This document shows positions 2,258-35,030 of a DNA stretch of 39,070 nucleotides, piece after piece; the stretch's first letter is position 1, and the number at the start of each line of letters is the position of its first letter. This DNA comes from a virus. The DNA is taken from IMG/VR virus record IMGVR_UViG_3300044846_002851, positions 1-39,070 of that record. One strand, given 5' to 3'. Under the pieces are notes generated by a model. That model ran no database searches, was not told the DNA's origin, and saw only the letters and a list, made by a program, of their open reading frames with translations. The position numbers and the translations under genes are program-made.

Positions 2258-3070
2258 ATGATTAGCGTAGACACAGAATTTTATTCATCACCTTATTATT
2301 TTCTTATCAGAGATAAGGGGGATAAATATTCCTTATATTTCTCTGCAGAGGAAACGTTAACTGAAGCTCGTAAAAAAGACGAGGTTATCCACTTTGATAA
2401 AAAGAAAGGAAAGAAAGTTAAAAATTATTTGGAAAAAACCGTAAAAGACAAAAAAAAGAAATCAACCAAAACACTTAAAACTGATTTGGAAGAATTGGTG
2501 AATTCAGACGGTGCTATGTCAAACTCAGCAATTCCAATTCTTGACCCAAAACTTCACCCAAAGAAAACGATGGACCAAACCGTAGCTGCGGCAAGAATCA
2601 CCAACGACCCTATTGCTCGTGGTTATAGAAGTTATTATGGTGAGTCAGTTGAAGAAATTGAAGAAATTGATATGTCAGGAGCTTTTGGTTATGAAGAAAC
2701 TGAAGATATGGATGGGAAAGACACTTTTGAATATTTGGTAAACGATATGGGAATGGAACCGGAAGATGCTGAAGAAAGAACAAAACAAAAAGGCCAAGAC
2801 CCAACAGGTAATAAAGATAAAAAGTCCCCTTATTATAAGGACCCAAATTTTATAACAAGAGCAACTCTTTCTGAAATACAAAAACAAAAGGCAATTAAAG
2901 TTGTTGAAGATTTATTAGTTAAGAAAAAATCATCAAACAATGCCGATGTAAATAAAAAAGAATTAGAGACTTCAAGAATGTTAAAAAGAAATTTAACGGT
3001 TTTGAAAAAACAAGCAGAAAAAGAAGGTATTTCAGTTTCGGAATTAATTAAAATGTTAAAAAGTGAATAA
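2258..3070 (+). CDS. Hypothetical phage protein, charged, probably virion-associated
   Basis: I do not recognise this 270-residue protein. It opens with a short beta-rich part (residues 1-35), then a lysine-rich stretch (about 35-75, with KKKGKKVKNY and KDKKKKS), an acidic central part with a VEEIEEIDMSG segment, and a helical C-terminal third. The composition suggests a nucleic-acid or core-associated structural protein, but that is inference. It follows a candidate late promoter and overlaps the next gene by 8 bases, so it probably heads the plus-strand operon. Confidence 0.65.
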   Translation: MISVDTEFYSSPYYFLIRDKGDKYSLYFSAEETLTEARKKDEVIHFDKKKGKKVKNYLEKTVKDKKKKSTKTLKTDLEELVNSDGAMSNSAIPILDPKLHPKKTMDQTVAAARITNDPIARGYRSYYGESVEEIEEIDMSGAFGYEETEDMDGKDTFEYLVNDMGMEPEDAEERTKQKGQDPTGNKDKKSPYYKDPNFITRATLSEIQKQKAIKVVEDLLVKKKSSNNADVNKKELETSRMLKRNLTVLKKQAEKEGISVSELIKMLKSE

Positions 3071-3539
3071 AGACCTATACAATTCATCCAAAGGTGAAAT
3101 CGAATTTCCTAAAGAGAAAAAGGAACATATGAAAAAATGTTTTCATATGGTTAAAGGTGCCGATGAAAATACGGAAGGTTTTAACAGAAATAAGGAATTA
3201 CAAAATCAAAACTTTATTGAATATAAACAATTAAAGAGAATTAAAAACTTCTTTGATAATTTTATTGGTAATCAAAATGAACCTTCATTTATTTTGAATG
3301 GTGGTGTCGTTATGAAAAATTGGGTTAATGATGAACTTCGTAAAATGAGAGAATTTGGTGACTTAACCAAACGAAACAAAAAAGACACGGGAATGCAAAA
3401 CGCATACATCAAACCTCACGAGAAAAAAGATTTTACAAATGTAAGAAAATCTCAAGAGCATTCAAAAACTGTTGAACGATATGATGAGGCGGTTACGAGC
3501 ACCTTGAAAAGAATAAATGAAATAATGTTAAAATTATAA
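3063..3539 (+). CDS. Conserved phage protein of unknown function (LNGG/MKxWVN type)
   Basis: This protein has 158 residues from a GTG start that overlaps the stop of the preceding gene. An ATG at 3129 would remove the first 22 residues, but KGEIEFPKEKKEHMKK looks like the front of the conserved part, so I prefer GTG. Recognisable patches are ENTEGFNRNKELQ, QLKRIKNFFDNF and ILNGGVVMKNWVNDELRKMR. I associate this pattern with a recurring family of unknown function in marine T4-like phages. It is almost entirely helical and charged. It is translationally coupled to its neighbours. Confidence 0.65.
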   Translation: MNKDLYNSSKGEIEFPKEKKEHMKKCFHMVKGADENTEGFNRNKELQNQNFIEYKQLKRIKNFFDNFIGNQNEPSFILNGGVVMKNWVNDELRKMREFGDLTKRNKKDTGMQNAYIKPHEKKDFTNVRKSQEHSKTVERYDEAVTSTLKRINEIMLKL

Positions 3540-3541
3540 TT

Positions 3542-3841
3542 ATGGCAACAGAAATTACAGTAGATTTATCACAAAATGTTGATAACAATCTTTCAGCAAT
3601 TGCTGAGATGGAAAGAGCAAAATTAATACCTAAAAATGACTTTAACGCGGTAGGTAATGAATATTCATCAGTAAATAAAGATGCCCTTGCTGATGGGGAT
3701 AATAAAGGTAGAGGAACAGGTGTGTTTCTTGACGTGTATAATACCGCCGCAGGTACTGCTCAAGATATTATCGAAAGAAAAGACGACATTAAAATAAATA
3801 AATTTAATTCATCTAACACTTATCCGAACTTTCAACTATAA
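3542..3841 (+). CDS. Small hypothetical phage protein
   Basis: This 99-residue protein begins MATEITVDLSQNVDNNLS and ends SSNTYPNFQL. No domain is recognised. It lies 2 bases after the preceding stop and its own stop overlaps the next start by one base (TAATG), so it is part of the same translation unit. The middle is polar and glycine/aspartate-rich (ALADGDNKGRGTG), which suggests a flexible segment. A small structural or assembly role is possible from context only. Confidence 0.6.
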   Translation: MATEITVDLSQNVDNNLSAIAEMERAKLIPKNDFNAVGNEYSSVNKDALADGDNKGRGTGVFLDVYNTAAGTAQDIIERKDDIKINKFNSSNTYPNFQL

Positions 3842-4500
3842 TGAAATTACAAGAATCTCTTAAAGGTTTAATATTAGAAATTGCTTCTATTGAAAGTGTT
3901 ATTGACTCAATCAAAAAGAAGCAAGTTATCGCTTTATATTATACTGGTGACTCACCGGGTGGTGATGGTTTAAGAACCATTGAACCTGTGTGTCTTGGTG
4001 TTAGTAAAGCAGGTAATAAAGTTTTAAGAGCTTGGGATTACGAAGGGGCATCTCATACCGCAACTTTAGGTACCCAACCATTACCCGGTTGGAGACTTTT
4101 TAGATTAGATAAAATAACTTCATATAAACCAAATGGACAAGTGTTTAATGAAATGAGACCAAATTTTAATCCAAATGGTGATAAAAGTATGGTTTCAATA
4201 ATTACATTGGCAAATTTTGGAGAACCGGCACAACCATCAATAATTCCACAAGAATTACAACAACCTCAACAAACACCTGAAACACCACAACCAAACAATG
4301 ATGCCGTTATTGATAGAACTATCGATTCATTAACAAACGAGTTTACACAGAAATATGGTGACGGTGGATTTGATTTATCTAAATCAGCTGAAGCATTCAA
4401 ACGAATTTACGCGGCAATAGAATCAGAAACCGGAAATAAATTAACAGACGCCGAAAAAGCTTCATTAAGAACAATAATAACAAACAAATTACAAAAATAA
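3841..4500 (+). CDS. Stand-alone WYL-like domain protein
   Basis: The 219-residue protein has a WYL-like beta domain at about residues 20-105: an opening helix ending in KKKQVIALYYTGD, strands around RTIEPVCLGVSKAGNKVLRAW, and a closing RLFRLDKITSYKPNG, matching the order of features in WYL domains (basic residues, then FRLDRI). WYL domains usually sit behind a helix-turn-helix and sense ligands or nucleic acid. No such DNA-binding domain is present here. After a Pro/Gln-rich linker (residues 130-157) there is a helical C-terminal domain. The N-terminus MKLQESLKGLILEIAS resembles the short amphipathic leaders of other proteins in this window. The WYL call is by eye and moderate. Confidence 0.6.
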   Translation: MKLQESLKGLILEIASIESVIDSIKKKQVIALYYTGDSPGGDGLRTIEPVCLGVSKAGNKVLRAWDYEGASHTATLGTQPLPGWRLFRLDKITSYKPNGQVFNEMRPNFNPNGDKSMVSIITLANFGEPAQPSIIPQELQQPQQTPETPQPNNDAVIDRTIDSLTNEFTQKYGDGGFDLSKSAEAFKRIYAAIESETGNKLTDAEKASLRTIITNKLQK

Positions 4501-4561: not shown

Positions 4562-5185
4562 ATGAGTGATTTAATGCAAAAATTAGCAATGTCAAACGCT
4601 AAAGCCCTTATGACCCAAACAGATAGTCCAAGAAGAATGGACTCATCATCACAACCAATGGTTCAACAATTCGACATGCCAAATGTAAAATATAACATAC
4701 CACAAGAATTCTTACAAGAAAGTCCTCAACAATCGTCACAACCATATCTTTCCTCATTACCTGTTGAAAATACTAAACCTGTTGGTGTACCTACGGTTGA
4801 TGCAATTAAAAACTCAAAACTACCGGATGAAATCAAAAAATTAATGATGGAACATCCAATTGCTCAACCAAACCAAGCACCTACAATGACAATGTCTAAC
4901 GAGTTAATTGAAAAATCAAGAAGATTAATGGGGCACAACGAAGGAAGTTATATTCCTGAATCTGCAAAACCAAAATCATCCCCTGTTCAAAAATCACAAC
5001 CAACTCAAAACACAGGAATCGATTATAAATTAATTCAAAGAATGATTAATGATGCAGTTACGAAATCATTAAAAGAAAATGGTTTGATTGCTGAAAGTAC
5101 AGAAAAATCTAACGAAACATTTAGTTTTAAAGTTGGAAAACACGTATTTGAAGGTAGAGTAACAAAAATTAAAAAAATGTCTTAA
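4562..5185 (+). CDS. Hypothetical low-complexity phage protein
   Basis: This 207-residue protein is not recognised. Residues 1-140 are Pro/Gln/Ser-rich and probably disordered, with several short helices such as VDAIKNSKLPDEIKKLMMEHP. The C-terminal part has a predicted helix (YKLIQRMINDAVTKSLKENG) followed by a compact beta ending FKVGKHVFEGRVTKIKKM. Disordered linkers joining small modules are common in phage scaffold or head-vertex proteins, so a virion-assembly role is plausible. The gene stands apart from its neighbours, with intergenic gaps of 61 and 55 bases that each contain a hairpin. Confidence 0.6.
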   Translation: MSDLMQKLAMSNAKALMTQTDSPRRMDSSSQPMVQQFDMPNVKYNIPQEFLQESPQQSSQPYLSSLPVENTKPVGVPTVDAIKNSKLPDEIKKLMMEHPIAQPNQAPTMTMSNELIEKSRRLMGHNEGSYIPESAKPKSSPVQKSQPTQNTGIDYKLIQRMINDAVTKSLKENGLIAESTEKSNETFSFKVGKHVFEGRVTKIKKMS

Positions 5186-5240: not shown

Positions 5241-6452
5241 ATGTCAAAAATAAAAGTATTAGTCGTACCATCCGACAGAAGCGGAGTTGGTAAATTTAGG
5301 TCAGTTGACCCTCACATTTTCTTACAAAATCTTTATGGAGATGATTTTCATATTGATATCATCTATGACCCGTCCTATGACGATATGAACTTTTGGAAAC
5401 AATATCAAATTGTTAGTTTCCATAGAAGTATCGGTCCTGATTTTGAAAAAGCCCACGAATTAATCCAAAAATTAAATACTATGGGTATCATAACTGTTTG
5501 TGATATCGATGACTATTGGATGCCGGGTAAAGAACATCCTATTCATGACATAATTATGTTTAATAAAATAAACGAAAAGATAACTGCAAACCTTAAGGTA
5601 TCAAAATATGTCACTACAACAACCACATTATTTGCGGATGAAATTAGCAAATACAATAAAAATGTTTTTGTATTACCAAACGCGATAAATCCCAACGAAC
5701 CTCAATTTAAAGAACCAACATTAGAATCAGATAGATTAAGATTTGGATGGTTAGGAGGGTCATCTCACTTACATGATATTCAAATATTAAACGAAGGGTT
5801 TAATAAATTAACGAAATATCAAGATAAAGTACAATACGTTCTTTGTGGTTTTGACACTAGAGGTACGGTGACTGAAATTAATTCACAAACCGGAGAACAC
5901 GTAAAACGAAACATTAAACCTGAAGAAACTGTTTGGGCTCAATATGAAAAAATCTTCACACAAGATTATAAAATAGTTTCAGACAACTATAAAAAACATC
6001 TACTATTATACAATCAAGATATATTCCCTAATGAGATGGCAGAATCTTATTTAAGAGTTTGGACAAAACCAGTTACCTCTTACGCTAAGAATTATTCAAA
6101 ATTTGATGTATCTTTGGCACCAATTAAAAACCATATGTTTAACAGAATGAAATCTCAATTAAAAGTAATTGAGGCTGGATTCTACAAAAAAGCATTAATT
6201 GCCTCTAATATCGGTCCTTATAGTTTAGATTTAAAACATTGTTTGAAAAATGGTGAATTTGTGGATGGAAATGCATTATTAGTTGATGAGGTTAGAAATC
6301 ACTCTGATTGGGCAAAATATATGGAAAAATTAATCAAGAACCCTAATATGGCAAAAGACATGGGAGAAAGATTATATGAAACAGTTAAAGACAAATATGA
6401 TTTAAATATTGTAACAAAAGATAGAGCAGAATTTTATAAATCAATACTATGA
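5241..6452 (+). CDS. Glycosyltransferase, GT-B fold (GT4-like)
   Basis: The protein has 403 residues, a normal size for a GT-B enzyme transferring sugar from a nucleotide donor. The N-terminal Rossmann half starts IKVLVVPSDRSGVGKFR. A bridging strand gives VFVLPNAINPNEP, the usual boundary before the C-terminal donor-binding half, which opens RFGWLGGSSHLHDIQIL. Later, FDVSLAPIKNHMFNRMKSQLKVIEAG matches the acidic donor-ribose region of GT4 enzymes, where a Glu binds the nucleotide-sugar. No signal peptide or membrane segment is visible. It opens the glycan island and overlaps the exonuclease gene by 4 bases. Donor and acceptor are unknown. Confidence 0.8.
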   Translation: MSKIKVLVVPSDRSGVGKFRSVDPHIFLQNLYGDDFHIDIIYDPSYDDMNFWKQYQIVSFHRSIGPDFEKAHELIQKLNTMGIITVCDIDDYWMPGKEHPIHDIIMFNKINEKITANLKVSKYVTTTTTLFADEISKYNKNVFVLPNAINPNEPQFKEPTLESDRLRFGWLGGSSHLHDIQILNEGFNKLTKYQDKVQYVLCGFDTRGTVTEINSQTGEHVKRNIKPEETVWAQYEKIFTQDYKIVSDNYKKHLLLYNQDIFPNEMAESYLRVWTKPVTSYAKNYSKFDVSLAPIKNHMFNRMKSQLKVIEAGFYKKALIASNIGPYSLDLKHCLKNGEFVDGNALLVDEVRNHSDWAKYMEKLIKNPNMAKDMGERLYETVKDKYDLNIVTKDRAEFYKSIL

Positions 6453-7150
6453 TAAACATACCATTAAACAAGATTTTATTTTTAGACATTGAAACTGTTG
6501 GTATTGAACCAACATGGGAATCATTGTGTTTAAATAGACCGGAACTTTCATTTCAATTTGAGAAATATTTTGATTGGTTCCAAAAAAGATTTCCTGAAGA
6601 TGCCGATGAAGGTCCGGGTAAAATGTTTGTTAACCGAGCGGCATTAGTTCCGGAATTTTTACGAATTGCTTGTGTTAGTGTTGCGTTTGTAGCTCCTGAT
6701 GGTACTACAAAAATGGAATCATATAGTAATGTAGATGAAAAAGAACTATTAAAAGATGTTCAGAAAATGCTTCATCGTACCGGTGAATTAGGATTCTTCC
6801 TATGTGGTCATAATGTTAAAGGGTTTGATATTCCTGTTCTTGCAAAAAGAATGATTATGAATGGATTACTACCACCAAAAATATTACCAGGTCATGACAC
6901 TAAACCTTGGGAAATTAAAGCACTTGACACCAAAGAAGTTTGGCAATACGGTGGTTATGGGTCAATCGCATCATTAGAATTAATGTGTGTTTGTTTAGGA
7001 GTTGAGTCTTCTAAAAATATGGAAGTCACCGGTAATAAAGTTCACGAAGCGTTTTGGGATAAAAAAGATATCAAAGGAATTGTTGAGTATTGTGAAAAAG
7101 ACGTTGAGGTATTAATAGACGTAATTAAAAAATTAAAAGAATTAGTATAA
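6449..7150 (+). CDS. DEDDy-type 3'-5' exonuclease (DNA polymerase B-like)
   Basis: A 233-residue single-domain exonuclease. Exo I is LFLDIETVG (D13, E15), Exo II is CGHNVKGFDIP (D127), and Exo III is YCEKDV with Y214 and D218 spaced YxxxD. These four acids and the tyrosine define the DEDDy class that uses two metal ions to remove nucleotides from 3' ends. It resembles the proofreading domain of family B polymerases as a free-standing protein. No polymerase domain is attached. It begins within the stop of the preceding glycosyltransferase gene (ATGA) and its stop overlaps the start of the dUTPase, so replication/repair functions are co-translated with glycan genes. Confidence 0.85.
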   Translation: MINIPLNKILFLDIETVGIEPTWESLCLNRPELSFQFEKYFDWFQKRFPEDADEGPGKMFVNRAALVPEFLRIACVSVAFVAPDGTTKMESYSNVDEKELLKDVQKMLHRTGELGFFLCGHNVKGFDIPVLAKRMIMNGLLPPKILPGHDTKPWEIKALDTKEVWQYGGYGSIASLELMCVCLGVESSKNMEVTGNKVHEAFWDKKDIKGIVEYCEKDVEVLIDVIKKLKELV

Positions 7151-7779
7151 TGGATGGATTAGACGGATTGGGTTTTGACCCTGAAATATTAAATGATATT
7201 CAAAATCATTTTAAGAAAATACAAGAAGAGGCAGGTGTTGAACTTGATGTGGATGATGAATATCAAAGAGAATTAGAAGAGTTAATTGGTATGACATATG
7301 AAGAAATGAATGAAGATGCTGTCAAAACCTTTAAAACAAAAACTTTAAAAGTAGAGTTAATTGATAATGATGCAAAATTCCCTGAATATGCATATCCAAG
7401 TGATTCAGGATTTGACTTATTTTCAACAGAGGAAGTTATATTACAACCATTTGGACGAGCATTAGTACCAACAGGAATTAAATTATCAATACCAGATGAA
7501 TTTGAAATTCAAGTTAGACCTAAAAGTGGATTGGCAATTAATCAAGGGTTAACTGTATTAAACACTCCGGGAACAGTTGATTCCGGATATAATGGTGAAA
7601 TTAAAGTAATAATTTTCAATACAAATAACATATCAGTATCAATCCCTAAAGGAACTAAAATTGCACAAGCGGTTTTATCTCCGGTAGTAAATGGAAAATA
7701 TGTTAACTTAGTTCAAGTTAATAAGGTTAACGATGGTGATAGAGGTGATAACGGATTTGGTAGTACAGGATTAAAATAA
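7150..7779 (+). CDS. dut: dUTP diphosphatase with N-terminal extension
   Basis: The enzyme hydrolyses dUTP to dUMP and pyrophosphate, keeping uracil out of phage DNA and feeding dTMP synthesis. All five trimeric dUTPase motifs are present: PSDSGFDL (about 83-90), RPKSGLA (123-129), GTVDSGYNGEI (141-151, with catalytic Asp144), KGTKIAQAV (167-175) and RGDNGFGSTG (198-207). Usual length is about 140-150 residues. Here some 65 residues precede the core: an acidic helical region with DVDDEYQRELEELIG and a MTYEEMNEDA patch, not recognised. The gene overlaps the exonuclease stop by one base. Confidence 0.93.
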   Translation: MDGLDGLGFDPEILNDIQNHFKKIQEEAGVELDVDDEYQRELEELIGMTYEEMNEDAVKTFKTKTLKVELIDNDAKFPEYAYPSDSGFDLFSTEEVILQPFGRALVPTGIKLSIPDEFEIQVRPKSGLAINQGLTVLNTPGTVDSGYNGEIKVIIFNTNNISVSIPKGTKIAQAVLSPVVNGKYVNLVQVNKVNDGDRGDNGFGSTGLK

Positions 7780-7780
7780 T

Positions 7781-9406
7781 ATGATAACAGTAGGATATTC
7801 GACAAGAACTCATAACCCAGAGTTTATTGAATACTTGAAGAAAAGTTCAGGTTTCAAAAAAATTGAGGTTATTGAAAAAATAAACAATGGTGAAAAATCT
7901 CTTTCAGAGGTTTACAATGAAATACTATCCGAGTCAAAGACGGATATTGTTGTTTTATGTCATGACGACATTTATTTTGATACTAACGCATGGTATAGTA
8001 AATTAATTAAACATTTTGAAAAATCTGATTTCGGTATTATTGGAATGGCCGGAACTACTGAAATGCCTGAAAGCGGTATGTGGTGGGAAAACAGAAAAAA
8101 AATGGTAGGTATTGTTAACCACGAACATGAAGGGAAAAAATGGGAATCAAAATACTCAGAGAGTATTGGTAATAATATTTTTGAAACTGTGATTGTTGAC
8201 GGTCTTTTTATGGCAATTAATAAGAAAAAAATTAAGAAAAACTTTAACGAAAATTTTAAAGGATTTCACTTCTATGATATACCATTTTGTTTTGATAACT
8301 ATTTGGAAGGTGTTAAAGTAGGTGTTATAACAAACATCAGAATAACTCACAAATCTATTGGTCAAACTAATGAACAATGGGAAAAAAACAAAAAATTATT
8401 TGCGGAAACATATAAATCAAATTTACCGGTTAAACTACCATATAACGAACAAAGAAAACTAAAAGTATTATTATCTTGTTTATTCTTTAAAACATTTACT
8501 GGTTCAGAACTTTATGTTTATGAATTAGCAAAAAATTTAATTAAACAAAATTGTGACGTAACCGTAATGTCCCAAATTGGAGGACCATTAACGGACATGG
8601 CAAAAAAACAAGGTATTAAATGTGTTTCTTTTGAAGATGCTCCCGGATTTAAAATGGGGGACGGAAAATGGGGACATAACACAGATAAAGGGTTTCAACC
8701 ATCTCAACCAAATGTAATGTACCGAGTGTCAGAAGTTAATTTTGATTTAATCCATATGCAACATAAACCTGTTGCAGAAAGAATGATTCAATTCTATCCT
8801 GAGATTGATAAAATTTATTCAATTCATTCAGAAGTGATTGAATTGGAAAACCCTATTGAACACAAATCAATTAAAAAATACATTGCAATTAGACCTGAAA
8901 TTAAAGATTATTTAATTAATTTTTTCCAAATACCTGACGAGAAGATTGAAGTTATTTATAATCCTATTGATAATGAAAAATTCAAGCCAAAATCAATTAA
9001 GGAAGAAAATAGCGTTCTTTTTGTTGGAACAATTGATTACCTACGAAAAGAAACAATCTTAGATTTAATGGAACGAACTAAGGAAGAAGGTAAAGAATTA
9101 TGGTTAGTTGGCGAAGATAAAGGAAATTACCTACAACAAGTATTGTTTGAAACTCACGTAAAACATTTTTCACCAACATGGAATGTGGAATCATTTATTT
9201 CTAAATGTTCTGAAACGGCAGGCGTTCAGTTAGGAAGAACAACTATTGAAGGTTGGTTATGTGGAAAACCGGGATGGATTTATAAAGTTGATTCAGGAGG
9301 ATTTATTTTAAATAAAGAAAAGTTTGAGGTACCGACAGATTTAGAAAAATATTACGCATCAACTGTCTCAAAACAAATAAAAGAAGAATACATTAAAATA
9401 TTATAA
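7781..9406 (+). CDS. Bifunctional glycosyltransferase: GT-A (GT2-like) fused to GT-B (GT4-like)
   Basis: At 541 residues this carries two transferase modules. Residues 1-210 look like a GT2-type GT-A domain: ITVGYSTRTHNPEF at the start, the metal/donor motif VLCHDDIYF (H61-D62-D63) and a late FHFYDIPFCFDNYLEG region. From about residue 226, KVLLSCLFFKTFTGSELYVYELAKNL opens a GT-B enzyme, with KIEVIYNPIDNEKF at the inter-domain boundary and SVLFVGTIDYLRKE starting the donor domain. The C-terminal donor motif includes GRTTIEGWLCGKP. Such fusions usually add two consecutive sugars. It lies 1 base after the dUTPase and 1 base before the dehydrogenase. Confidence 0.8.
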   Translation: MITVGYSTRTHNPEFIEYLKKSSGFKKIEVIEKINNGEKSLSEVYNEILSESKTDIVVLCHDDIYFDTNAWYSKLIKHFEKSDFGIIGMAGTTEMPESGMWWENRKKMVGIVNHEHEGKKWESKYSESIGNNIFETVIVDGLFMAINKKKIKKNFNENFKGFHFYDIPFCFDNYLEGVKVGVITNIRITHKSIGQTNEQWEKNKKLFAETYKSNLPVKLPYNEQRKLKVLLSCLFFKTFTGSELYVYELAKNLIKQNCDVTVMSQIGGPLTDMAKKQGIKCVSFEDAPGFKMGDGKWGHNTDKGFQPSQPNVMYRVSEVNFDLIHMQHKPVAERMIQFYPEIDKIYSIHSEVIELENPIEHKSIKKYIAIRPEIKDYLINFFQIPDEKIEVIYNPIDNEKFKPKSIKEENSVLFVGTIDYLRKETILDLMERTKEEGKELWLVGEDKGNYLQQVLFETHVKHFSPTWNVESFISKCSETAGVQLGRTTIEGWLCGKPGWIYKVDSGGFILNKEKFEVPTDLEKYYASTVSKQIKEEYIKIL

Positions 9407-9407
9407 G

Positions 9408-10565
9408 ATGAGGATTGGAGTTATTGGCGCAAATACATTAGGGGTGGCGTTTTCATTACTTTGTGAAAATGCGGGATACGATGTTATAATTTATGATGAA
9501 AATGAAGATACCATTTTTAATATAAATCAAGAAATTTTTAACACAAAAGAACCATTGATTCAAAAAATGTTATTTGAGTCAGTCGATTTTTCGGGTACTA
9601 CAAATGTAATTGACTTAATAGAAAAATGTAATACTATCTTTACGTTTGTTGATACGGTTCCAACATTAGAAGGAGGGAACGATACCACAAAAGTTTTTGA
9701 AGTTGTCAATCATTTTTTTACCGTATCTCAATTAGACAAACCAATTCATAATAAAAAATTTATAATTGGCTCTACAATGAATCCCGGAGAAACCGAACAA
9801 ATTCAAGAAAAGTTACATATGTTTAACATACAAGTTGCGTATTGTCCGTCAATGTCATCAGAAGGTAATATAATTAACGGGTACTACAATTCAGATATGG
9901 TTATTGTTGGGTCAGAATACCAAGAATTGTCAAACGAACTAATGAGGTTATTCTCTAAAATACAACCAAATGGACTTAATATTTATACTATGTCTTCAAA
10001 AGCTGCTGAAATTACTAAACTATCAATAAACACTTTCTCATCAATGAAAATAAGTTTTATTAATATGTTAGGGGATTTATTCGTTAAATCCGGTTTGGAA
10101 AATGAAAGTGGTCTTATTTTAAGTACAATAGGTAAAGATTCAAGAGTTGGAACAAAATCATTAAAATACGGATTTGGATATGGGGGTATTAATCTCCCGA
10201 GAGATACAAAAACGTTAACTGATTATTTAACAAAATACGATATAGACACAACATTAATTACATCAATTAAAGAAAGTAATGAAAATCATTCCAAATTCTT
10301 AAAAGAACATTACATATCTCAAAACCCAAATAAAGACATTCCTTTTATTATTGAAGACATAGGGTTTAAGAAAGGTACGGACAATTTAGTTAATTCACAA
10401 CCGTGGAATCTTTGTATTGAATTACTCAATGAAGGATATCATATTGGAGTAATTGATAACCACCAACTCGGTAATCAATTCAATGAATTGTCTTTGTCTT
10501 ATAATAACAGACTTAAATTTTATAAATCAGGGACAAAACCTGAAGGATATCTAATCAAACTATAA
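9408..10565 (+). CDS. UDP-glucose/GDP-mannose dehydrogenase family protein lacking the catalytic cysteine
   Basis: The 385-residue protein has the family architecture. It has an N-terminal NAD-binding Rossmann domain (MRIGVIGANTLGVAFS), a central helix with AEITKLSINTF (K204 and N208 in the expected places), and a C-terminal UDP-binding-type domain. In the family the thiol nucleophile sits in a motif like GFGGxCxPKD. Here the matching segment is GFGYGGINLPRD, so Asn262 occupies the cysteine position (codon AAT). The PEFLxEG segment is also altered to PSMSSEG. It may therefore be a dehydrogenase with altered chemistry or a sugar-nucleotide binding protein. Its stop overlaps the next start by one base. 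Confidence 0.8.
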   Translation: MRIGVIGANTLGVAFSLLCENAGYDVIIYDENEDTIFNINQEIFNTKEPLIQKMLFESVDFSGTTNVIDLIEKCNTIFTFVDTVPTLEGGNDTTKVFEVVNHFFTVSQLDKPIHNKKFIIGSTMNPGETEQIQEKLHMFNIQVAYCPSMSSEGNIINGYYNSDMVIVGSEYQELSNELMRLFSKIQPNGLNIYTMSSKAAEITKLSINTFSSMKISFINMLGDLFVKSGLENESGLILSTIGKDSRVGTKSLKYGFGYGGINLPRDTKTLTDYLTKYDIDTTLITSIKESNENHSKFLKEHYISQNPNKDIPFIIEDIGFKKGTDNLVNSQPWNLCIELLNEGYHIGVIDNHQLGNQFNELSLSYNNRLKFYKSGTKPEGYLIKL

Positions 10566-11230
10566 TGAAATTATTAATTAAATTCCCAACAAGAAATCGT
10601 AAGAATAAATTTTTTACAGTATTAAAACAATATCAAAGATTATGTGAAGATATTGAAAACACATTTTTTTTAATAACTTTAGATAATGATGATGATGAAA
10701 TGAATTCACCTGAGGTTGCCGATATTTTTACCACCTTTAAGAATATAAAATATGTTTATGGAGATAGTACCTCTAAAATTCATGCAATAAATAGAGACCT
10801 TGAAACTGTTGACGAATGGGATATTGTTTTATTAGCATCAGATGATATGACACCAAAAGTTAAAGGGTATGACAATATCATTCGTAATAAAATGAAAGAA
10901 CATTATCCTGACACTGATGGTGTATTATGGTTTAATGACGGTCACCAAGGAAACAATTTAAACACTTTATGTATTTTAGGTAAAAAATACTACGAAAGAT
11001 TTAACTACATTTATCATCCTGAATATAAATCTGTTTGGTCGGATAATGAATTTATGTTGGTTGGAAATATATTGAAAAAACAAACCTACTTTGATGAGGT
11101 TATTATTGAACACGAACATCCTGATTGGGGATACGGCAAACGAGATAATATTCATCAAGTAAATTCTACAAATGAAAGTCACGATAGAAACTTATTCTTA
11201 ACTCGAAAACAAAATAACTTTTATCTATGA
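10565..11230 (+). CDS. Putative GT-A glycosyltransferase
   Basis: A 221-residue protein with a GT2-like beginning, LLIKFPTRNRKNKFFTVLKQYQ, and an acidic motif in DIVLLASDDMTPKVKGYD that corresponds to the DxD region binding metal and nucleotide-sugar. A later WSDNEFMLVGNI followed by HEHPDWGYGKRDNIHQ fits the acceptor side of such enzymes. It is somewhat shorter than usual GT2 proteins. The stop overlaps the next ATG by 4 bases. Donor sugar unknown. Confidence 0.65.
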   Translation: MKLLIKFPTRNRKNKFFTVLKQYQRLCEDIENTFFLITLDNDDDEMNSPEVADIFTTFKNIKYVYGDSTSKIHAINRDLETVDEWDIVLLASDDMTPKVKGYDNIIRNKMKEHYPDTDGVLWFNDGHQGNNLNTLCILGKKYYERFNYIYHPEYKSVWSDNEFMLVGNILKKQTYFDEVIIEHEHPDWGYGKRDNIHQVNSTNESHDRNLFLTRKQNNFYL

Positions 11231-11880
11231 AAAAAATAATAAGTTATTCCCTTTGGGGGGATAACCCTAAGTACACAATAGGCGCTATTAAAAACGCTGA
11301 ATTAACACCAATCATTTATCCCGGATGGATTTCAAGATTTTATTGTGGTGAGTCTGTCCCAACGGATATTATCAAAACATTAATTTCTTTACCACACACT
11401 GAAGTTATTATGATGGATGTAGATGGGGATTGGACAGGTATGTTTTGGAGATTTTACGCTTGTGAAGACTCAGATATAATGTTATCAAGAGATACTGACT
11501 CAAGACTAAGTTTAAGAGAAAAATTGGCGGTTGACGAATGGTTATCATCTGATAAAGATTTTCATATAATGAGAGACCACCCTTACCACAACACCGAAAT
11601 TTTAGGAGGTATGTGGGGAGTAAGAAATGGTTTATTAAAAAATATAAAAGAATTAATTAAAGACTACACTAAAGGTGATTTTTGGCAAGTTGACCAAAAT
11701 TTTTTAAGAGAAAAAATACACCCATTAGTTATTAATGATAGTTTTACTCACGATTCTTATTTGAATTACACACCTAACTCAAGACCATTTCCATCGGAAA
11801 GAATAAATAGAGAATTTGTTGGTGACGTTTTTGATGAAAACGAAAATAGACACCCTGATTATTATTTAAAAATTTATTAA
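11227..11880 (+). CDS. Putative glycosyltransferase with DxD motif
   Basis: This 217-residue protein starts MKKIISYSLWGDNPKY and contains MFWRFYACEDSDIMLSRDTD, where RDTDSR (D89, D91) is a plausible DxD metal-binding motif. I recall this opening and RDTDSR pattern from proteins of unknown specificity in polysaccharide clusters. A later GGMWGVRNG and DQNFLREKIHP are also typical of that group. It lies between other GT-A type genes and overlaps the previous stop by 4 bases. Assignment as a transferase is by motif and neighbourhood. Confidence 0.6.
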   Translation: MKKIISYSLWGDNPKYTIGAIKNAELTPIIYPGWISRFYCGESVPTDIIKTLISLPHTEVIMMDVDGDWTGMFWRFYACEDSDIMLSRDTDSRLSLREKLAVDEWLSSDKDFHIMRDHPYHNTEILGGMWGVRNGLLKNIKELIKDYTKGDFWQVDQNFLREKIHPLVINDSFTHDSYLNYTPNSRPFPSERINREFVGDVFDENENRHPDYYLKIY

Positions 11881-11887
11881 AACAATC

Positions 11888-12550
11888 ATGACATTAACCA
11901 TATTAATTTGTGTTCATAGTATCAATAATTTTAACGATGAACTATTAAACAAAGCAATATTATCATTAGTTAATCAAACATATAAAGAATTTAAAACAGT
12001 GATTGTTTTAGATGAATGTTGGAGTAATACTAAAGAAATGATTACCTCATCAAATTACGATTTGGATTTAACAATATTAACAAGAGATAAAAAACAAGGT
12101 TTATCTTATGCTAAAAATTATGGATTATATCATATTAACACTGAATGGGTAGGATTTTTAGATGCGGATGATTTGTACCTTCCAAATAAACTTGAGAAAC
12201 AAGTTGATTATATTATGAACAACAAAGTTGATTTTTTAGGTACAAAATCTTGGTATATTGACGGATTAAATGAAAAAAATTTATACACTAATTGGGATTT
12301 AACCAATAATGAAATTCCAAATTATGAAAATCATGAAGAAATTAAAAGTGAAATTTTTAATTCAAATGTATTAACTCATGGTTCTATGTTGTTTAGAAAA
12401 GAATGTATTAATATATTAAATGGATACCAAGATGTTAGAGGTGCCGAAGATTGGGATTTATGGAAAAGAGGAATTTCGAGTGATTTTATTTTTCACCAAT
12501 TACAAGATAAACTTTATATCTATAGAAGAGGGACTAGCGTTCCATTATAA
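11888..12550 (+). CDS. Family 2 glycosyltransferase (GT2)
   Basis: A 220-residue classical GT2 core. LTILICVHSINNFNDELLNKAILSLVNQTY is the usual nucleotide-binding opening, shown here by residues 3-32. GLSYAKNYGL is the helix after the third strand, and FLDADDLYLP (D92, D94, D95) is the DxD region. EDWDLWKRG near the C-terminus is the typical catalytic-base ED motif. There is no membrane tail, so it acts in the cytoplasm on a soluble or peripheral acceptor. Donor unknown. Confidence 0.85.
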   Translation: MTLTILICVHSINNFNDELLNKAILSLVNQTYKEFKTVIVLDECWSNTKEMITSSNYDLDLTILTRDKKQGLSYAKNYGLYHINTEWVGFLDADDLYLPNKLEKQVDYIMNNKVDFLGTKSWYIDGLNEKNLYTNWDLTNNEIPNYENHEEIKSEIFNSNVLTHGSMLFRKECINILNGYQDVRGAEDWDLWKRGISSDFIFHQLQDKLYIYRRGTSVPL

Positions 12551-12570
12551 TCAATAAAATAATTTAAAAA

Positions 12571-13479
12571 ATGTATAAATTAATAAATAACAATACGTTA
12601 TTATATCGTAGTGAAAAAATAAATTACCTAAAATCTTTGGAATATGCAAAAAGTTTAGAAAAAAAAGAAATTGATAAACTGATATTTCATTCTTTTTGGA
12701 GAGTACCTAAAGACTTTGGTTTAAAACAAGCATCGGCGATTAAATCAATTATTGTTGCACATAAACATAAACTAGATAAGGTTGAGATAAATTTATGGTC
12801 GAATATTGATTTATCGAATAATAGTTATTTCCAAGAAATTTCAAAATATGTTAATTTAAAAATTTGGGATATGAGTGAAGAAATTAAAAACACTACTCTC
12901 GAAGATTGTTATTTCTTAAAAAATTCGGAATCAGTTAATGATGACTTTTGTTGGCTTGAAGGGGATTTATTTAGATTATTAGTATTACATAAATATGGTG
13001 GATTTTACATTGATATGGATGTATTAGTATTGAGAGATATGTCTCCATTAAATGATTTAGAATTTCTATACCAATGGGGGCCAACCGGATTTAAGTGTTT
13101 TCACACTGACACTATTGACCCTAATTTTAGGATGAACGGAGCAATTATGAGATTGAATAAAGGGTCGGATTTATCATTAGAATTTTTAGAAATTTTAAAA
13201 GTAATTCCACCTATAAAAAATACCACAAGATGGGGTAGTGAATTATATTCCAAAACTATCAGAAATGAAGTGTTAGCATTACCTTGTATTTGGTTTAATT
13301 CTGAATGGGGGTATGAAGATACTGTATTAGAACCATTTAAAAAAATTGATAATATTAAATTTTTTGACGGAGCGTTTACTTGGCATTGGCATAATAGATG
13401 GGATGAACCAATAGAGATTGACTCTAAATTTGATATTTTACATAAACAACACGACAAAGAATTTAAATTAATTAGTTAA
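12571..13479 (+). CDS. GT32-type glycosyltransferase (DXD sugar-binding family)
   Basis: The 302-residue protein contains the signature of the Gly_transf_sug/GT32 family: IFHSFWRVPKDFG near residue 38, then GDLFRLLVLHKYGGFYIDMD (131-150), in which D148 and D150 form the DxD motif. NGAIMRLNKGS follows and TWHWHNRW lies near the end. Members transfer mannose, galactose or related sugars with retention. No signal anchor is visible, unlike eukaryotic relatives. It starts 20 bases after the preceding stop and abuts the next gene. Confidence 0.85.
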   Translation: MYKLINNNTLLYRSEKINYLKSLEYAKSLEKKEIDKLIFHSFWRVPKDFGLKQASAIKSIIVAHKHKLDKVEINLWSNIDLSNNSYFQEISKYVNLKIWDMSEEIKNTTLEDCYFLKNSESVNDDFCWLEGDLFRLLVLHKYGGFYIDMDVLVLRDMSPLNDLEFLYQWGPTGFKCFHTDTIDPNFRMNGAIMRLNKGSDLSLEFLEILKVIPPIKNTTRWGSELYSKTIRNEVLALPCIWFNSEWGYEDTVLEPFKKIDNIKFFDGAFTWHWHNRWDEPIEIDSKFDILHKQHDKEFKLIS

Positions 13480-14163
13480 ATGAAATACATTTATCACCAT
13501 TTAGGTCTTGGAGACCATATTATTTGTAACGGAATTGTTAGACATTATCGAGAACTCTATGATACAGTTACTGTTTTTTGTAAACCACATTATTTTACTA
13601 ATGTTGAGTATATGTATCGAGACGATAACAATATTATTATTTTACCAATCGGTGAGGATTCTGATGTAATTAATTATATTAATAAAAATAATTTACATTC
13701 AGATTTAATAACTGTCGGTTTTGATAAACCGGGATTCCATAATGCAAAAACATTTGATGAAGGATTTTACAACACGGTTGATTTACCATTTGAATATAGA
13801 TTCTCTAAATTTAAATTTGAACGAAACATTGAGAAAGAATCCGAAGTTTATAATGAATTAAACCCAAATGATGAACCTTACATTTATGTTCATGATGACC
13901 GGGAAAGAGGGTTTGAAATTGATAGAAATAAAATAAATCCTGAGTTAAAAATCATCGAAAATGACAAAAGATTTTTAATGTTTGATATGTTAAAAATTAT
14001 TGAGAATGCAACTGAAGTTCATAGTATGCAAACAGGAATGAAAGACTTAATTAATTCTTTTAATTTTAACAAACCAAAGTTTTACCTACATTGGTATGTT
14101 AGACCATACAACGACAATTACGATAGTATTGGATTAAATAAATTTACTAAAATATTAAAATGA
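13480..14163 (+). CDS. Putative GT-B glycosyltransferase, heptosyltransferase-like
   Basis: This 227-residue protein opens MKYIYHHLGLGDHIICNGIVR, close to the glycine-rich loop of GT9/ADP-heptose transferase-like GT-B enzymes (GLGDxIxxxP/G). It is shorter than a complete GT-B enzyme (usually 330 or more residues), and the C-terminal half keeps only a partial donor domain (YIYVHDDRERGF, ATEVHSMQTGMKDLINSF). It could be a compact transferase or an accessory protein. It overlaps the GT11 gene by 4 bases. Confidence 0.5.
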   Translation: MKYIYHHLGLGDHIICNGIVRHYRELYDTVTVFCKPHYFTNVEYMYRDDNNIIILPIGEDSDVINYINKNNLHSDLITVGFDKPGFHNAKTFDEGFYNTVDLPFEYRFSKFKFERNIEKESEVYNELNPNDEPYIYVHDDRERGFEIDRNKINPELKIIENDKRFLMFDMLKIIENATEVHSMQTGMKDLINSFNFNKPKFYLHWYVRPYNDNYDSIGLNKFTKILK

Positions 14164-14942
14164 ACGGATACGTTTCAAGTCATTTACAAGGAGGGCTAGG
14201 AAATTACCTATTTCAAATTTCCGCAGCCTACGCTGTTTCACTAAAGCATAACAAAGAATTAAAAATTGACACTTCGGATATTTCAACTATCCATAGTCCA
14301 TTAGAGTTATACTCAAATAACATTTTAAGAAATATTCAATTTGGTAATATTGATGAATTTAGATTAATTCATAATTCCGGGCATTCACCAATATCTTATC
14401 TTGAAATACCCGTTACCGAAGGTAATTTAAAATTAGATGGGTATTATCAAAACGAAATGTATTTTAAAGAATATAGAAATGAAATTCTTAATTTGTTTGA
14501 TATTGATGATACAACCAGTCAATATTTAACTGAAAAATATAACTCAATTAATTTTGATAATACTTGTTCAATACACGTTAGAAGAGGTAACTATGTTGAA
14601 AGACAACATTTTCATCCATTACAAACAGTAGAATATTATAAACAAGCAATCTCAATTATCGGTGAAAAAACATTATTTTTAATTTTCTCAGACGATATAG
14701 AATGGTGTAAAATTAATTTAGATTTTATTGAAAATAAAATTTTTATTAGTGGAAATTTGGATTATCAGGACTTATATTTAATGTCGAAGTGTAATCATAA
14801 TATCATTGCTAACTCAAGTTTTAGTTGGTGGGGTGCTTGGTTAAACAAACTTAATGATAAAAAAATAATATACCCATCATTTTGGTTTAATAATGGACCT
14901 GACAGTAGTCAAATAGGTGGAGAAAATTGGATTAAAATTTAA
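14160..14942 (+). CDS. GT11 alpha-1,2-fucosyltransferase-like enzyme (fucose or colitose transfer)
   Basis: GT11 enzymes transfer L-fucose from GDP-fucose, and relatives in E. coli O55-type clusters use GDP-colitose. The 260-residue protein shows GGLGNYLFQISAAYA at residues 11-25, the GDP-binding motif SIHVRRGNYV (H139, R141, R142; the usual Asp is Asn here), FSDDIEWCK, and the C-terminal ANSSFSWWGAWLN. Length is near the family norm. It lies next to the epimerase-reductase and close to ColD-like and Gmd genes, so the donor is probably made by these neighbours. Confidence 0.88.
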   Translation: MNGYVSSHLQGGLGNYLFQISAAYAVSLKHNKELKIDTSDISTIHSPLELYSNNILRNIQFGNIDEFRLIHNSGHSPISYLEIPVTEGNLKLDGYYQNEMYFKEYRNEILNLFDIDDTTSQYLTEKYNSINFDNTCSIHVRRGNYVERQHFHPLQTVEYYKQAISIIGEKTLFLIFSDDIEWCKINLDFIENKIFISGNLDYQDLYLMSKCNHNIIANSSFSWWGAWLNKLNDKKIIYPSFWFNNGPDSSQIGGENWIKI

Positions 14943-14948
14943 AAAATT

Positions 14949-15875
14949 ATGAGAAAATATTTAATAACAGGGTCAAATGGACTTGTGGGTTCATCATTAA
15001 AAAACATACTTGGAGACGGTCATGTCTATCACACAAAAGATGAGGTTGATTTAACTGACTCAAAAAAAACATTAGATTACATAACATATCACGTTAAAAA
15101 TAATGGAGTTAACACTATTATTAATTGTTCCGCAAAAGTAGGTGGGGTACAGGCGAATATGAGAAACAATAAAGGTTTTTTTATAGAAAACTTTATGATA
15201 AATAATAATGTAATTGAAGCTTCCTTTAAAAACGAAATACCTAATTTTGTTAACTTACTATCAACTTGTATTTTTCCGGACGAAAATATAACATTCCCAC
15301 TAACTCCAAATCAAATGGATAATGGGGCACCTCACTTTTCAAATCATGGTTATGCCTATTCAAAAAGAATTGCGGGATACCAAACAAACGTTATCAAAAA
15401 AGTATTAAACGCCAATTGGATATCAGTAATTCCTACTAATGTTTATGGGGTTAATGATAACTTCCATTTAGAGGATGGTCATATGATTCCGGCAATGATA
15501 CACAGAGCGTATCTCTCAAAATTAAAATCAGAAAAAATGGTTGTTTGGGGAGACGGAAGTCCTTTAAGACAAGTAATTCATTCTGATGATTTAGCAAAAT
15601 TAATTTTATGGTCATTAGATAATTGGAAAAATGATGAATCGTTTATGGCAATAAATCCAAACGAACATTCAATTTTAGACATTGCAAATATCATTTGTAA
15701 TACTTTAGAAATCCCAAAAAATGATATTATATTTGATTCGGAAAAACCAATGGGTCAATATAGAAAACCGGCTATTTCTAACGCACCTGAAGATTTTGAA
15801 TTTATATCATTAGAGAATGGTATTAAAAAAACCATTGATTGGTTTATAGAAAATTATGACACAATTAGAAAATAA
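14949..15875 (+). CDS. GDP-L-fucose synthase / GDP-L-colitose synthase-like epimerase-reductase
   Basis: A 308-residue short-chain dehydrogenase of the GDP-fucose synthase type, which epimerises and then reduces a GDP-4-keto-deoxysugar with NADPH. NADP-binding ITGSNGLVG is at 6-14. NLLSTCIFP gives Ser105 and the epimerase Cys107, GYAYSKR gives Tyr135 and Lys139, and GHMIPA gives His178, so every catalytic residue expected from E. coli Fcl is in place. ColC, which makes GDP-colitose, is a homologue of this family, and with a ColD-like gene next door either product is possible. I therefore leave the gene symbol open. Confidence 0.88.
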   Translation: MRKYLITGSNGLVGSSLKNILGDGHVYHTKDEVDLTDSKKTLDYITYHVKNNGVNTIINCSAKVGGVQANMRNNKGFFIENFMINNNVIEASFKNEIPNFVNLLSTCIFPDENITFPLTPNQMDNGAPHFSNHGYAYSKRIAGYQTNVIKKVLNANWISVIPTNVYGVNDNFHLEDGHMIPAMIHRAYLSKLKSEKMVVWGDGSPLRQVIHSDDLAKLILWSLDNWKNDESFMAINPNEHSILDIANIICNTLEIPKNDIIFDSEKPMGQYRKPAISNAPEDFEFISLENGIKKTIDWFIENYDTIRK

Positions 15876-15879
15876 AAGT

Positions 15880-16638
15880 ATGAAAAAATACGATATTGTC
15901 ATAGTGTCTCACGAAAAAGATTTCAATAATATAAAACACATTGTCGAACATTGTGAAAAAAATTTAGAATTTGATTCAATACATTTAATATTAAGTGACC
16001 GTCACCCATATCAACATATGGAATTATTACAAACATTAACTAAAAGACCGGTACACAAACACATTGAAACCGATGTTTTAAAGATAGATAAATCAAGATT
16101 AAGACATAGACCTGAATGGGTTTATCAAATGATGTTAAAAATTTTTCAAAATGTAACAAGTAATGATAATTTTTTAGTAATTGAATCTGATTGTATTATT
16201 TTAAAAAATTTAGAATTCTTTAATGAAGACAAAACTATCTTTTATTTAGGGAGAGACCATTACCACCAACAATATTATACATTTAATCAAAGATTATTGG
16301 GAATTGGTAGAGAATACGACCACTCTTTTATTTCTGAATTTATGATGTATAATAAAAAAGTGGTTAAAGAACTACTAAATAAAACAAACTGTGATACAGT
16401 TGAAGATTTTTTAGAACTTCTTTATCATTATGTTGACGGAGAGAGTTACCCATCAGATTATGACCTATATGGTAATTTTTATTACACCAACTATCCTGAA
16501 AATTTCGAAACAAAAGTATTGAATTTTGATATGTCGGGAAGAAGTGGAAACTATTGGTCCGATTCCGAAATTAAAGGATTAATTAATTTACACCAAGATA
16601 AAGACGCAATTAGTTTTCATTGCTGGGGACATAATTAA
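15880..16638 (+). CDS. DUF6492-like putative glycosyltransferase
   Basis: I start at the ATG at 15880 (MKKYDIVIVSHEKDF), giving 252 residues. A longer in-frame start at 15856 would overlap the previous gene by 20 bases. The protein has a GT-A-like shape: a first strand KYDIVIVSHEKD, then FLVIESDCIILKNLEF with an ESDC motif in place of DxD, and a histidine-rich YHHYV-type acceptor region (GRDHYHQQYYTF). This looks like the DUF6492 group found in polysaccharide clusters. Family recall is moderately certain. Confidence 0.6.
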   Translation: MKKYDIVIVSHEKDFNNIKHIVEHCEKNLEFDSIHLILSDRHPYQHMELLQTLTKRPVHKHIETDVLKIDKSRLRHRPEWVYQMMLKIFQNVTSNDNFLVIESDCIILKNLEFFNEDKTIFYLGRDHYHQQYYTFNQRLLGIGREYDHSFISEFMMYNKKVVKELLNKTNCDTVEDFLELLYHYVDGESYPSDYDLYGNFYYTNYPENFETKVLNFDMSGRSGNYWSDSEIKGLINLHQDKDAISFHCWGHN

Positions 16639-16654
16639 AATAACAAAATAAAAT

Positions 16655-17812
16655 ATGAATGACAAAATAACATTAGTAAAAGACACTATCGACATTAATG
16701 ATGTTAATAATTTAATCGAATGGTTAAAAACTAACCCTAGATTAACTAAAGGGGACCTGACAATTGAATTTGAAAAAAAATGGTCTGAATGGTTAGGTAC
16801 CAAATATTCGGTATTTGTCAACTCAGGGTCATCTGCTAATTTAGCCGCAATATATTCCTTAATTCTTTCAGGTAAATTAAAAAACAATAAGATTGTTGTG
16901 CCCGCAGTATCATGGGTAACAACCGTAACACCAACAATACAATTAGGTTTAGAACCGATTATGTGTGAATGTGATATGGATAACTTAGGGTTAGATATTA
17001 ATCACTTAAAAGAGATTATCAAAAATGAAAATCCAAGTGCAATTATCTTAGTACACGTATTAGGATTTCCAAACCACATGGATGAAATCATAGAATTGTG
17101 TAAGGAAAATAACATTCTGTTAATTGAAGACACTTGTGAATCAATAGGGTCTGAATACAAAGGAAATAAATTAGGAACTCTTGGGGATTTATCAACATTC
17201 TCATTTTATTTTGGGCACCATATGTCAACCATTGAAGGTGGGATGGTTTCAACTGATGACGAAGAGTTATATCATATTTTATTATCAATTCGTTCTCATG
17301 GTTGGGACAGAGATTTACCTAAAGAAAAACAAGAATTTCTTAGAGAAAAGTATAATGTAGATTCATTTAGGTCGCTATACACTTTTTATTATCCGGGATT
17401 TAATTTAAGAGCAACTGATTTACAAGCCTTTATTGGTTTAAATCAGTTAGAAAAATTACCAATGATTGTTGAAAATAGATATAAAAACTATCTGAGATAT
17501 AAAAATGAAATTAAAAATGATTATTGGAACGTATCTCCACCTGAAAATTCTTATGTTTCAAATTTTTCATTCCCAATTATAACCAAAAATATTAAATCAT
17601 TAACTAAAGAGTTGATGGATAACAATATTGAGTGTCGTCCACTAATATGTGGTTCAATAAACGAACATCCGTTTTGGTATGAAAGATACGGAAAACAAGA
17701 ATTACCAAATTCAAAAAAGGTACATGAGTATGGAATATACATACCAAATAATCATCAGATGACTGATGATGAAATAACTAAAGTTATAAAAATAGTTAAC
17801 AATAATATATGA
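16655..17812 (+). CDS. GDP-4-keto-6-deoxy-D-mannose 3-dehydratase-like (ColD), PLP enzyme
   Basis: The 385-residue protein has the DegT/DnrJ/EryC1 aminotransferase fold. NSGSSANLAA (about 56-65) binds PLP phosphate, and LIEDTCESIGS supplies Asp159 for the pyridine ring. The position of the usual Schiff-base lysine reads SFYFGHHMSTIEGGM, so His188 replaces Lys. In this superfamily that change marks 3-dehydratases such as ColD, which remove the C3 hydroxyl of GDP-4-keto-6-deoxymannose using PLP and glutamate. The length and the His position are as I recall for E. coli ColD. E1-type Fe-S cysteines are not evident. It overlaps the Gmd gene by 4 bases, which supports a GDP-sugar substrate. A perosamine transaminase is disfavoured by the missing lysine. 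Confidence 0.83.
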   Translation: MNDKITLVKDTIDINDVNNLIEWLKTNPRLTKGDLTIEFEKKWSEWLGTKYSVFVNSGSSANLAAIYSLILSGKLKNNKIVVPAVSWVTTVTPTIQLGLEPIMCECDMDNLGLDINHLKEIIKNENPSAIILVHVLGFPNHMDEIIELCKENNILLIEDTCESIGSEYKGNKLGTLGDLSTFSFYFGHHMSTIEGGMVSTDDEELYHILLSIRSHGWDRDLPKEKQEFLREKYNVDSFRSLYTFYYPGFNLRATDLQAFIGLNQLEKLPMIVENRYKNYLRYKNEIKNDYWNVSPPENSYVSNFSFPIITKNIKSLTKELMDNNIECRPLICGSINEHPFWYERYGKQELPNSKKVHEYGIYIPNNHQMTDDEITKVIKIVNNNI

Positions 17813-33381: not shown

Positions 33382-33405
33382 AAAAGGTAGTTAAATACAA
33401 CTACC
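33382..33405 (-). terminator. Terminator for the OmpA-like gene, overlapping its stop codon
   Basis: On the minus strand GGTAGTT, GTATTT, AACTACC is followed by nine T residues. The stem includes the stop codon at 33393-33391. On the plus strand it is preceded by an A-tract but lacks a T-tract, so it mainly serves the minus gene. Confidence 0.8.
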
Positions 33406-34512: not shown

Positions 34513-34527
34513 TTTAACTATTTTTAT

Positions 34528-34535
34528 TATAAATA
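34528..34535 (-). promoter_or_regulatory. Candidate phage late promoter TATTTATA
   Basis: On the minus strand TATTTATA followed by ATAAAAATAG lies 15 bases before the ATG at 34512. It sits beside a divergent host-type promoter at 34548-34578, so late and housekeeping signals are back to back. Confidence 0.55.
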
Positions 34536-34547
34536 TAACCAAAAAAT

Positions 34548-34997: not shown

Positions 34998-35030
34998 AAA
35001 AAAAAAAGGGTCTTACTGACCCTTTTTTTT
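34998..35030. terminator. Bidirectional terminator
   Basis: A-tract, GGGTC, TTACT, GACCC, T-tract. The stem is extended by A-T pairs to 12 bp or more. It lies between convergent genes, the one ending at 34993 (plus) and the one ending at 35029 (minus), and is strong in both directions. Confidence 0.9.

Follow-up and report, generated by a model that had tools for sequence, protein, structure and literature searches.

WYL domains are best known from hosts, in which they act as sensors switching antiphage or DNA-damage genes. Two surveys treat WYL as a sensor domain (PMC7824862, PMC9503650), and the literal Trp-Tyr-Leu, described as lying on its strand only in a subset of the WYL superfamily (PMC4012209), is not required for membership. 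The WYL regulators BrxR, CapW, PafBC, and DriD carry an N-terminal helix-turn-helix (HTH) and, in most cases, a WCX or dimerisation domain. WYL1, an accessory of Cas13d, and the WYL domain of a PIF1 helicase depart from the customary repressor architecture: they are described as binding single-stranded RNA or single-stranded DNA, acting with or fused to an enzyme (PMC9122601). Head-targeting peptides, the second kind of system to which the present locus can be compared, are well known from T4 (PMC9026906, PMC9958956), P1 DarB (PMC9024508), and giant phages (PMC5694885, PMC10052503). The T4 internal proteins are described as having N-terminal propeptides of 10-19 residues that act as capsid-targeting sequences, and the T4 prohead protease gp21 as cleaving after L/I-X-E (PMC9026906), while the T4 head protein gp23 loses 65 residues (PMC5694885, PMC9026906). 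ORF40 of Limnohabitans phage DC31 is annotated as a WYL domain-containing protein in a passage that carries no head-targeting claim, and it is likened to the present protein by annotation only (PMC12195039). Within the titles and abstract openings covered, no head-targeted phage WYL protein and no such set of tagged proteins was encountered; most subscription papers fell outside this coverage, making it weak evidence of absence.

The window analysed here is a 39,070-base virus record, a phage fragment whose gene at 36185-37999 (-) encodes a T4-type major head protein (phrog_138, E 9.9e-63). We examined the open reading frame at 3841-4500 (+), a real open gene of 219 codons (219 aa) that lies approximately 32 kb from the head protein gene. 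Five relatives of the window are contigs of 296-326 kb, and freshwater phages with such size and a T4-type head module are reported to infect Bacteroidetes (PMC9723584). Because the size and head module resemble those phages, the hosts of the window's phage group are probably Bacteroidetes, an assignment made by likeness only. A first scan confirmed 219 relatives of the protein, from which the loci of 80 were kept, with best-segment identities to the window protein of 46-94%; the gene was complete in 79 of the 80 fetched loci, giving 46 distinct proteins, and was single-copy in all six records searched. A second scan yielded 464 relatives confirmed by two patterns (80 kept), most of which belonged to a long type of ~300 aa. 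The long type was also present in five 'uncultured phage' records of 634-735 kb, where LR756501 and LR756503 may be one genome counted twice, given their equal length and equal match position. When bacterial homologues were sought by running two conserved peptide patterns against genome contigs, 45 stretches were returned and none was confirmed; distant WYL proteins would escape such a search. It was also noted that the window contains a long run of sugar genes at 5241-18783 (+), including a glycosyltransferase (phrog_7162) and, by reading only, nucleotide-sugar dehydratase/dehydrogenase-like and aminotransferase-like proteins, and that the gene content of this run differs among three relatives.

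The sequence-only reading had placed a WYL-like domain at the front of the protein, and Pfam, PADLOC, an AlphaFold2 model, and fold matches agree on this. Residues ~17-126 (3889..4218, +), comprising a leading helix and an Sm/SH3-like barrel, near-certainly have the WYL fold, as judged from these predictions and profile matches. The window protein matched Pfam WYL (PF13280) at E 0.0024 with 18.3 bits, below the cut-off of 21.8, and 25 of the 35 aligned family members matched at E<=0.01 (best 1.4e-5), with relatives from G004 and G005 exceeding the cut-off at 22.1 and 22.8 bits; the PADLOC WYL models matched the window protein at 6e-6. The AlphaFold2 prediction, built from 35 sequences, had a mean pLDDT of 71, with 73-89 in the ten-residue blocks across residues 21-130 except for 59 at 71-80, and consisted of a long helix followed by an SH3-like barrel. 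Structure prediction and comparison with WYL structures, which had been proposed as the check, thus returned an SH3-like/WYL fold and did not refute that reading. The first 23 rows of a Foldseek search against the PDB were all WYL regulators (E 8.9e-4 to 2.8e-2, probability 1.00), and VIA-align ranked BrxR first (Z 10.6, rmsd 2.4, 87 aligned), followed by PafBC (10.2), CapW (10.1), and DriD (9.8), with a CRISPR-related protein (Z 7.5) and the first Hfq rows (6.8) lower. The long type, for which a ~300-aa relative was modelled separately (25 sequences, mean pLDDT 76), gave a similar picture: WYL proteins led the Foldseek matches (CapW E 8.5e-4), and VIA-align recovered PafBC at Z 9.3 (rmsd 2.6, 90 aligned) with Hfq and Sm rows below 6. 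In the window model these fold searches effectively covered residues 8-126, and in the long-type model residues 52-155. The likely counterpart of the Trp-Tyr-Leu strand reads NKVL in the window protein, its register being judged by eye, and no WYL entry was retrieved when PDB chains were searched by sequence. In a viral-structure library, the matches listed included an 'Ackermannviridae sp.' protein, an uncultured Caudovirales phage 'WYL domain containing protein', and Bacillus phage G gp296.

While BrxR, CapW, PafBC, and DriD are the best fold matches of the phage protein, neither of their additional parts was recognised in it. No HTH was recognised in the window protein, whose model has a single helix before the barrel. 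The PADLOC HTH-WYL model was matched only at positions 126-198 of 229, leaving its HTH half unmatched, whereas E. coli YfjR matched the same model over 1-218, which upholds the earlier claim that the domain stands without a DNA-binding partner. In this respect the domain can be compared to WYL1 and the PIF1 WYL domain, to which it is likened by description only; unlike those, it is alone rather than working with or fused to an enzyme. The Pro/Gln linker and helical C-terminus that had been read from the sequence are present in the window protein, but the tail is a feature of only some of the family. The linker, at residues ~127-152 (4219..4296, +), has pLDDT below 50 at 132-151, and is absent from 29 of the 46 distinct relatives; the tail, at residues ~153-218 (4297..4494, +), has model helices at 153-172, 183-197, and 203-218, and occurs in 17 of the 46. 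Since 29 of the 46 distinct complete relatives stop at 126-135 aa, most proteins of this set consist of the WYL domain and little else, and those 29 are too short for a WCX or dimerisation domain, the window's own tail being barely covered by the fold search. We also considered a separate source for the helical tail, which was rejected: when residues 146-219 were compared with the rest of three relatives and with four long-type loci, nothing scored better than E 0.1.

We then considered what the barrel might bind. Among the 35 aligned proteins, Y34, R45, R63, S71, H72, R85, F87, and R88 are invariant and K91 nearly so, and across the long and short types together the invariant set is I, Y, G, R, P, G, R, G, S, and W-R-x-F. 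The conserved surface of CapW includes Tyr145, Arg183, Phe185, and Arg189 (PMC9122588), and the phage residues look like counterparts of this proposed ligand surface. The matching to the CapW and BrxR pockets was done by eye because a profile comparison with E. coli YfjR aligned 20-22 residues only and was uninformative. WYL domains in several proteins are described as binding single-stranded DNA or RNA, and a basic patch of BrxR as holding sulphates (PMC9122601). A phosphate-bearing ligand is favoured on account of these observations and the apparent CapW counterparts, and binding of RNA or single-stranded DNA by the phage domain is plausible in view of the family and of the invariant Y34, R45, R63, R85, F87, and R88.

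A protein that shares its fold with defence-system sensors, minus the HTH, could act as a decoy or sponge, soaking up the ligand of host WYL regulators of the BrxR or CapW type and thereby silencing defence; sensors of this type are reported to regulate CBASS and BREX genes (PMC9122588, PMC9122601). This agrees with the earlier suggestion that the protein blocks host WYL sensors, which the conservation data do not favour. The WYL core is 65% identical to that of G005, the most distant of three large relatives, compared with 31-53% for the four small neighbouring genes, 68% for the glycosyltransferase, 61% for the exonuclease, 48% for the dUTPase, and 72% for the head protein. Judged from these sequence identities, the conservation of the WYL gene is unlike that of the usual fast-evolving counter-defence gene, and its place in the genome is fixed; a sensor-blocking role is not favoured because of this, and we regard it as improbable.

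The genes surrounding the WYL gene were retained in 74-80 of the 80 loci, some of which end at a contig edge. Immediately upstream is a 99-aa gene of unknown function (3542..3841, +), a candidate partner found in 80/80 loci, whose stop overlaps the WYL start codon (TAATG in 71 loci, ATGA in 9). The remaining conserved-module genes encode 158 aa from a GTG or 136 aa from the ATG at 3129 (3063..3539, +; 78/80 loci), 270 aa (2258..3070, +; 77/80), and, downstream, 207 aa (4562..5185, +; 79/80). None of these four small neighbours (2258, 3063, 3542, 4562) came close to the curated cut-off of any family, and those at 2258, 3063, and 3542 had no match in a named-phage collection. Among genes of recognisable type, the closest encode a glycosyltransferase, a 3'-5' exonuclease, and a dUTPase; the latter two are nearby in 78/80 loci, and all three belong to the genes present in 77-79 of the 80.

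The small genes around the WYL gene had been described as looking structural, and this did not hold up: the neighbours lack a structural match, the nearest recognisable genes are metabolic, and the head protein is ~32 kb away. A structural neighbourhood was rejected on these grounds. SH3-like barrels are common adaptors, and a permanent structural part of the head, neck, or tail, in which the barrel serves as a protein-protein adaptor and not a sensor, would suit a conserved, single-copy gene. Yet WYL sensors rank ahead of other barrels in both models, the neighbouring genes show no match to structural families, and several basic residues never vary, making a structural part improbable. An alternative is an intracellular ligand-binding protein that remains in the infected cell and cooperates with the translationally coupled 99-aa protein or with enzymes of nucleotide and DNA metabolism encoded close by, its N-terminal helix docking a partner and not being a cleaved tag. 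We consider this possible and treat the role with the coupled 99-aa protein as the main rival to the reading developed below; the stop/start overlap in all 80 loci and the proximity of the exonuclease and dUTPase speak for it. In four long-type loci, the neighbours of the window's WYL gene were not found beside the long-type gene.

Although the structural-neighbour argument for a virion link failed, another reason for such a link emerged from the N-terminus. What is new here, as read from the sequence, is that residues 1-13 of the WYL protein (3841..3879, +) end in I/L-x-E, the T4 gp21 cleavage motif, here I11-L12-E13; they form a candidate head-targeting or processing peptide, which also distinguishes the phage protein from BrxR, CapW, PafBC, and DriD. 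L3, L10, I11, E13, and A15 are invariant in 35 aligned proteins while residue 12 is free (entropy 1.80). The [I/L]-x-E is located 23 residues before a conserved glycine loop in 51/51 distinct short-type proteins (50 I, 1 L), of which 46 came from the first scan and 5 from the second, the window's own I-L-E being additional; A15 is not kept in all five of the latter. The likeness to the T4 internal proteins (IPI-IPIII) and Alt lies in the short propeptide ending in L/I-X-E and in a gp21-type protease in the same phages (PMC9026906): a protease of this type (PF03420) was found in 5/5 of the ~300-kb relatives and in 0/2 fragments, one of which is the window. The first 60 residues of the head protein, ending in LINE-A, are nearly identical in the window and three relatives, and by comparison with the processing of gp23 LINE-A is inferred to be a cleavage site of the head protein here. 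Adjoining the head protein, an acidic protein at 38043-39002 (-) without a PHROG match at E<=0.001 has relatives in three genomes; a prohead protease is close to these in G001, G004, and G005, and the acidic protein is probably a scaffold or core protein.

The same N-terminus can be read in terms of an intracellular docking helix, since in the model it runs on into the first WYL helix and a partner might instead bind to the invariant Leu and Ile. For a docking helix it is odd that residue 12 is free while I11 and E13 are invariant; the low pLDDT of the N-terminus (54 for residues 1-10, 64 for 11-20) and the occurrence of similar peptides on otherwise unrelated proteins also speak against this reading. 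On the other side, the I-x-E peptide was absent from the long-type N-termini inspected, including four in the 634-735 kb records, which fits an intracellular role and counts against packaging. In loci L142-L145 of those records, many proteins begin with another recurrent, targeting-peptide-like pattern, in which a few residues rich in Lys and Phe precede Asn-Glu or a similar pair, as in MINNFIKFINEE and MENIKSFDSFNE.

The occurrence of similar N-termini on other proteins was assessed in three large relatives, comprising 923 proteins of at least 100 aa, which were grouped by their similarity beyond residue 32 into 528 families. The h..hh.E pattern started within the first 25 residues in 82.6 weighted families, compared with 18.0, 26.1, 20.5, and 18.7 in the four following windows, and the per-genome odds ratios were 4.1, 3.7, and 5.7. 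These counts are to be read with ~20 motif families expected by chance, gene starts called mechanically, and possible common ancestry among motif families that BLAST did not detect. Enrichment by end residue was 3.96-fold for Glu, 3.11 for Leu and Val, 2.84 for His, 2.65 for Arg, 2.48 for Ile, 2.45 for Lys, and 0.84 for Asp. A general amphipathic start therefore contributes to the excess in these sequences, with Glu still highest and Asp not enriched, and the 2.4-3.1-fold enrichment of patterns ending in Leu, Val, Arg, Lys, or His counts against packaging. In the exact register of the WYL peptide (residues 3-13, BLOSUM62, score >=22), 16 of 1054 other proteins matched, where internal stretches led one to expect 1.88; [IL]-x-E occupies positions 11-13 in 12 of these proteins (0.34 expected) and is missing there in the other 4. 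With a strict profile built on residues 4-16 of the WYL protein, 5 N-terminal windows reached >=10 bits versus 8 internal ones, and four of the five were WYL proteins themselves, leaving one other weak match. The window alone contained 3 h..hh.E starts, without a significant excess (p 0.18). Both this and the nearly empty strict profile count against packaging. A tblastn search of named phages with a related 26-residue N-terminus found nothing, the query being short and the test weak.

We further characterized the motif-bearing proteins, of which 74 were listed and 63 scanned, 11 being left out by eye as not signal-like. Seven Pfam families were represented among the 63: DUF6576 (3), LRR_14 (3), LRR_8 (2), LRR_EndoS (1), thymidylate synthase (2), Phage_L5_gp82 (1), and DHH (1). 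There were 19 PHROGs, including thymidylate synthase and endolysin; for thymidylate synthase, the motif match is probably spurious. A scan of ten motif-bearing proteins recorded leucine-rich repeats in some and no family above its cut-off. In loci L088-L136 of G001, G004, and G005, the N-terminal peptides of dozens of small proteins, most of them unknown, fall into common classes, with starts such as MKKVIRLTESDL, MKYIITES, MKELIRHIIKEE, and MNLQENIRRILREE, often in runs of adjacent genes; these shared classes are candidate head-targeting or processing peptides. Two window proteins that adjoin the head protein, at 33391-34542 (-) and 35029-36102 (-), have OmpA-like C-terminal matches (E 5.6e-4 and 3.6e-6) and a common N-terminus of the type MIKQTWNI.EDE.NRILNLHE. 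A further protein, at 31168-31854 (-), has a C-terminus, NESLRGLIIKVIKEQ, that resembles the N-terminal peptides at the opposite protein end and is kept in relatives.

Because the first 13 residues resemble phage-head tags, the WYL protein may travel in the virus particle. Our leading reading, which we hold tentatively, is that of a stand-alone WYL protein that is targeted to the head, trimmed, and injected, and whose ligand is a nucleotide or nucleic acid. As suggested by the sequence, residues 1-13 would act as a head-targeting propeptide that draws the protein into the prohead core, and a gp21-type prohead protease would trim it after Glu13. The trimmed protein would then be packaged alongside the DNA and injected into the next host, where, to judge from the family and the invariant residues, the conserved basic face of the barrel may bind a phosphate-bearing ligand, most likely a short single-stranded DNA or RNA, a nucleic-acid end, or a nucleotide. 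The conservation suggests that the protein would serve a conserved early-infection step and not a fast arms race. This conservation also counts against packaging: the T4 internal proteins IPI-IPIII are described as varying between phages (PMC9026906), whereas the phage WYL protein is conserved. A broader extension, which we consider possible, is that these large phages, whose hosts are probably Bacteroidetes, package and inject the WYL sensor by means of an I-x-E tag found on dozens of their otherwise unrelated proteins, amounting to a wide, protease-edited cargo system in which the WYL protein would be a conserved member.

A phage lineage that conserves a WYL protein without a DNA-binding part shows that the fold is used on the other side of the conflict between phage and host, or for the phage's own biology. 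Should the N-terminal peptide be a packaging tag, the sequence would offer a simple rule to predict which of the many unknown proteins of large phages travel in the virion.
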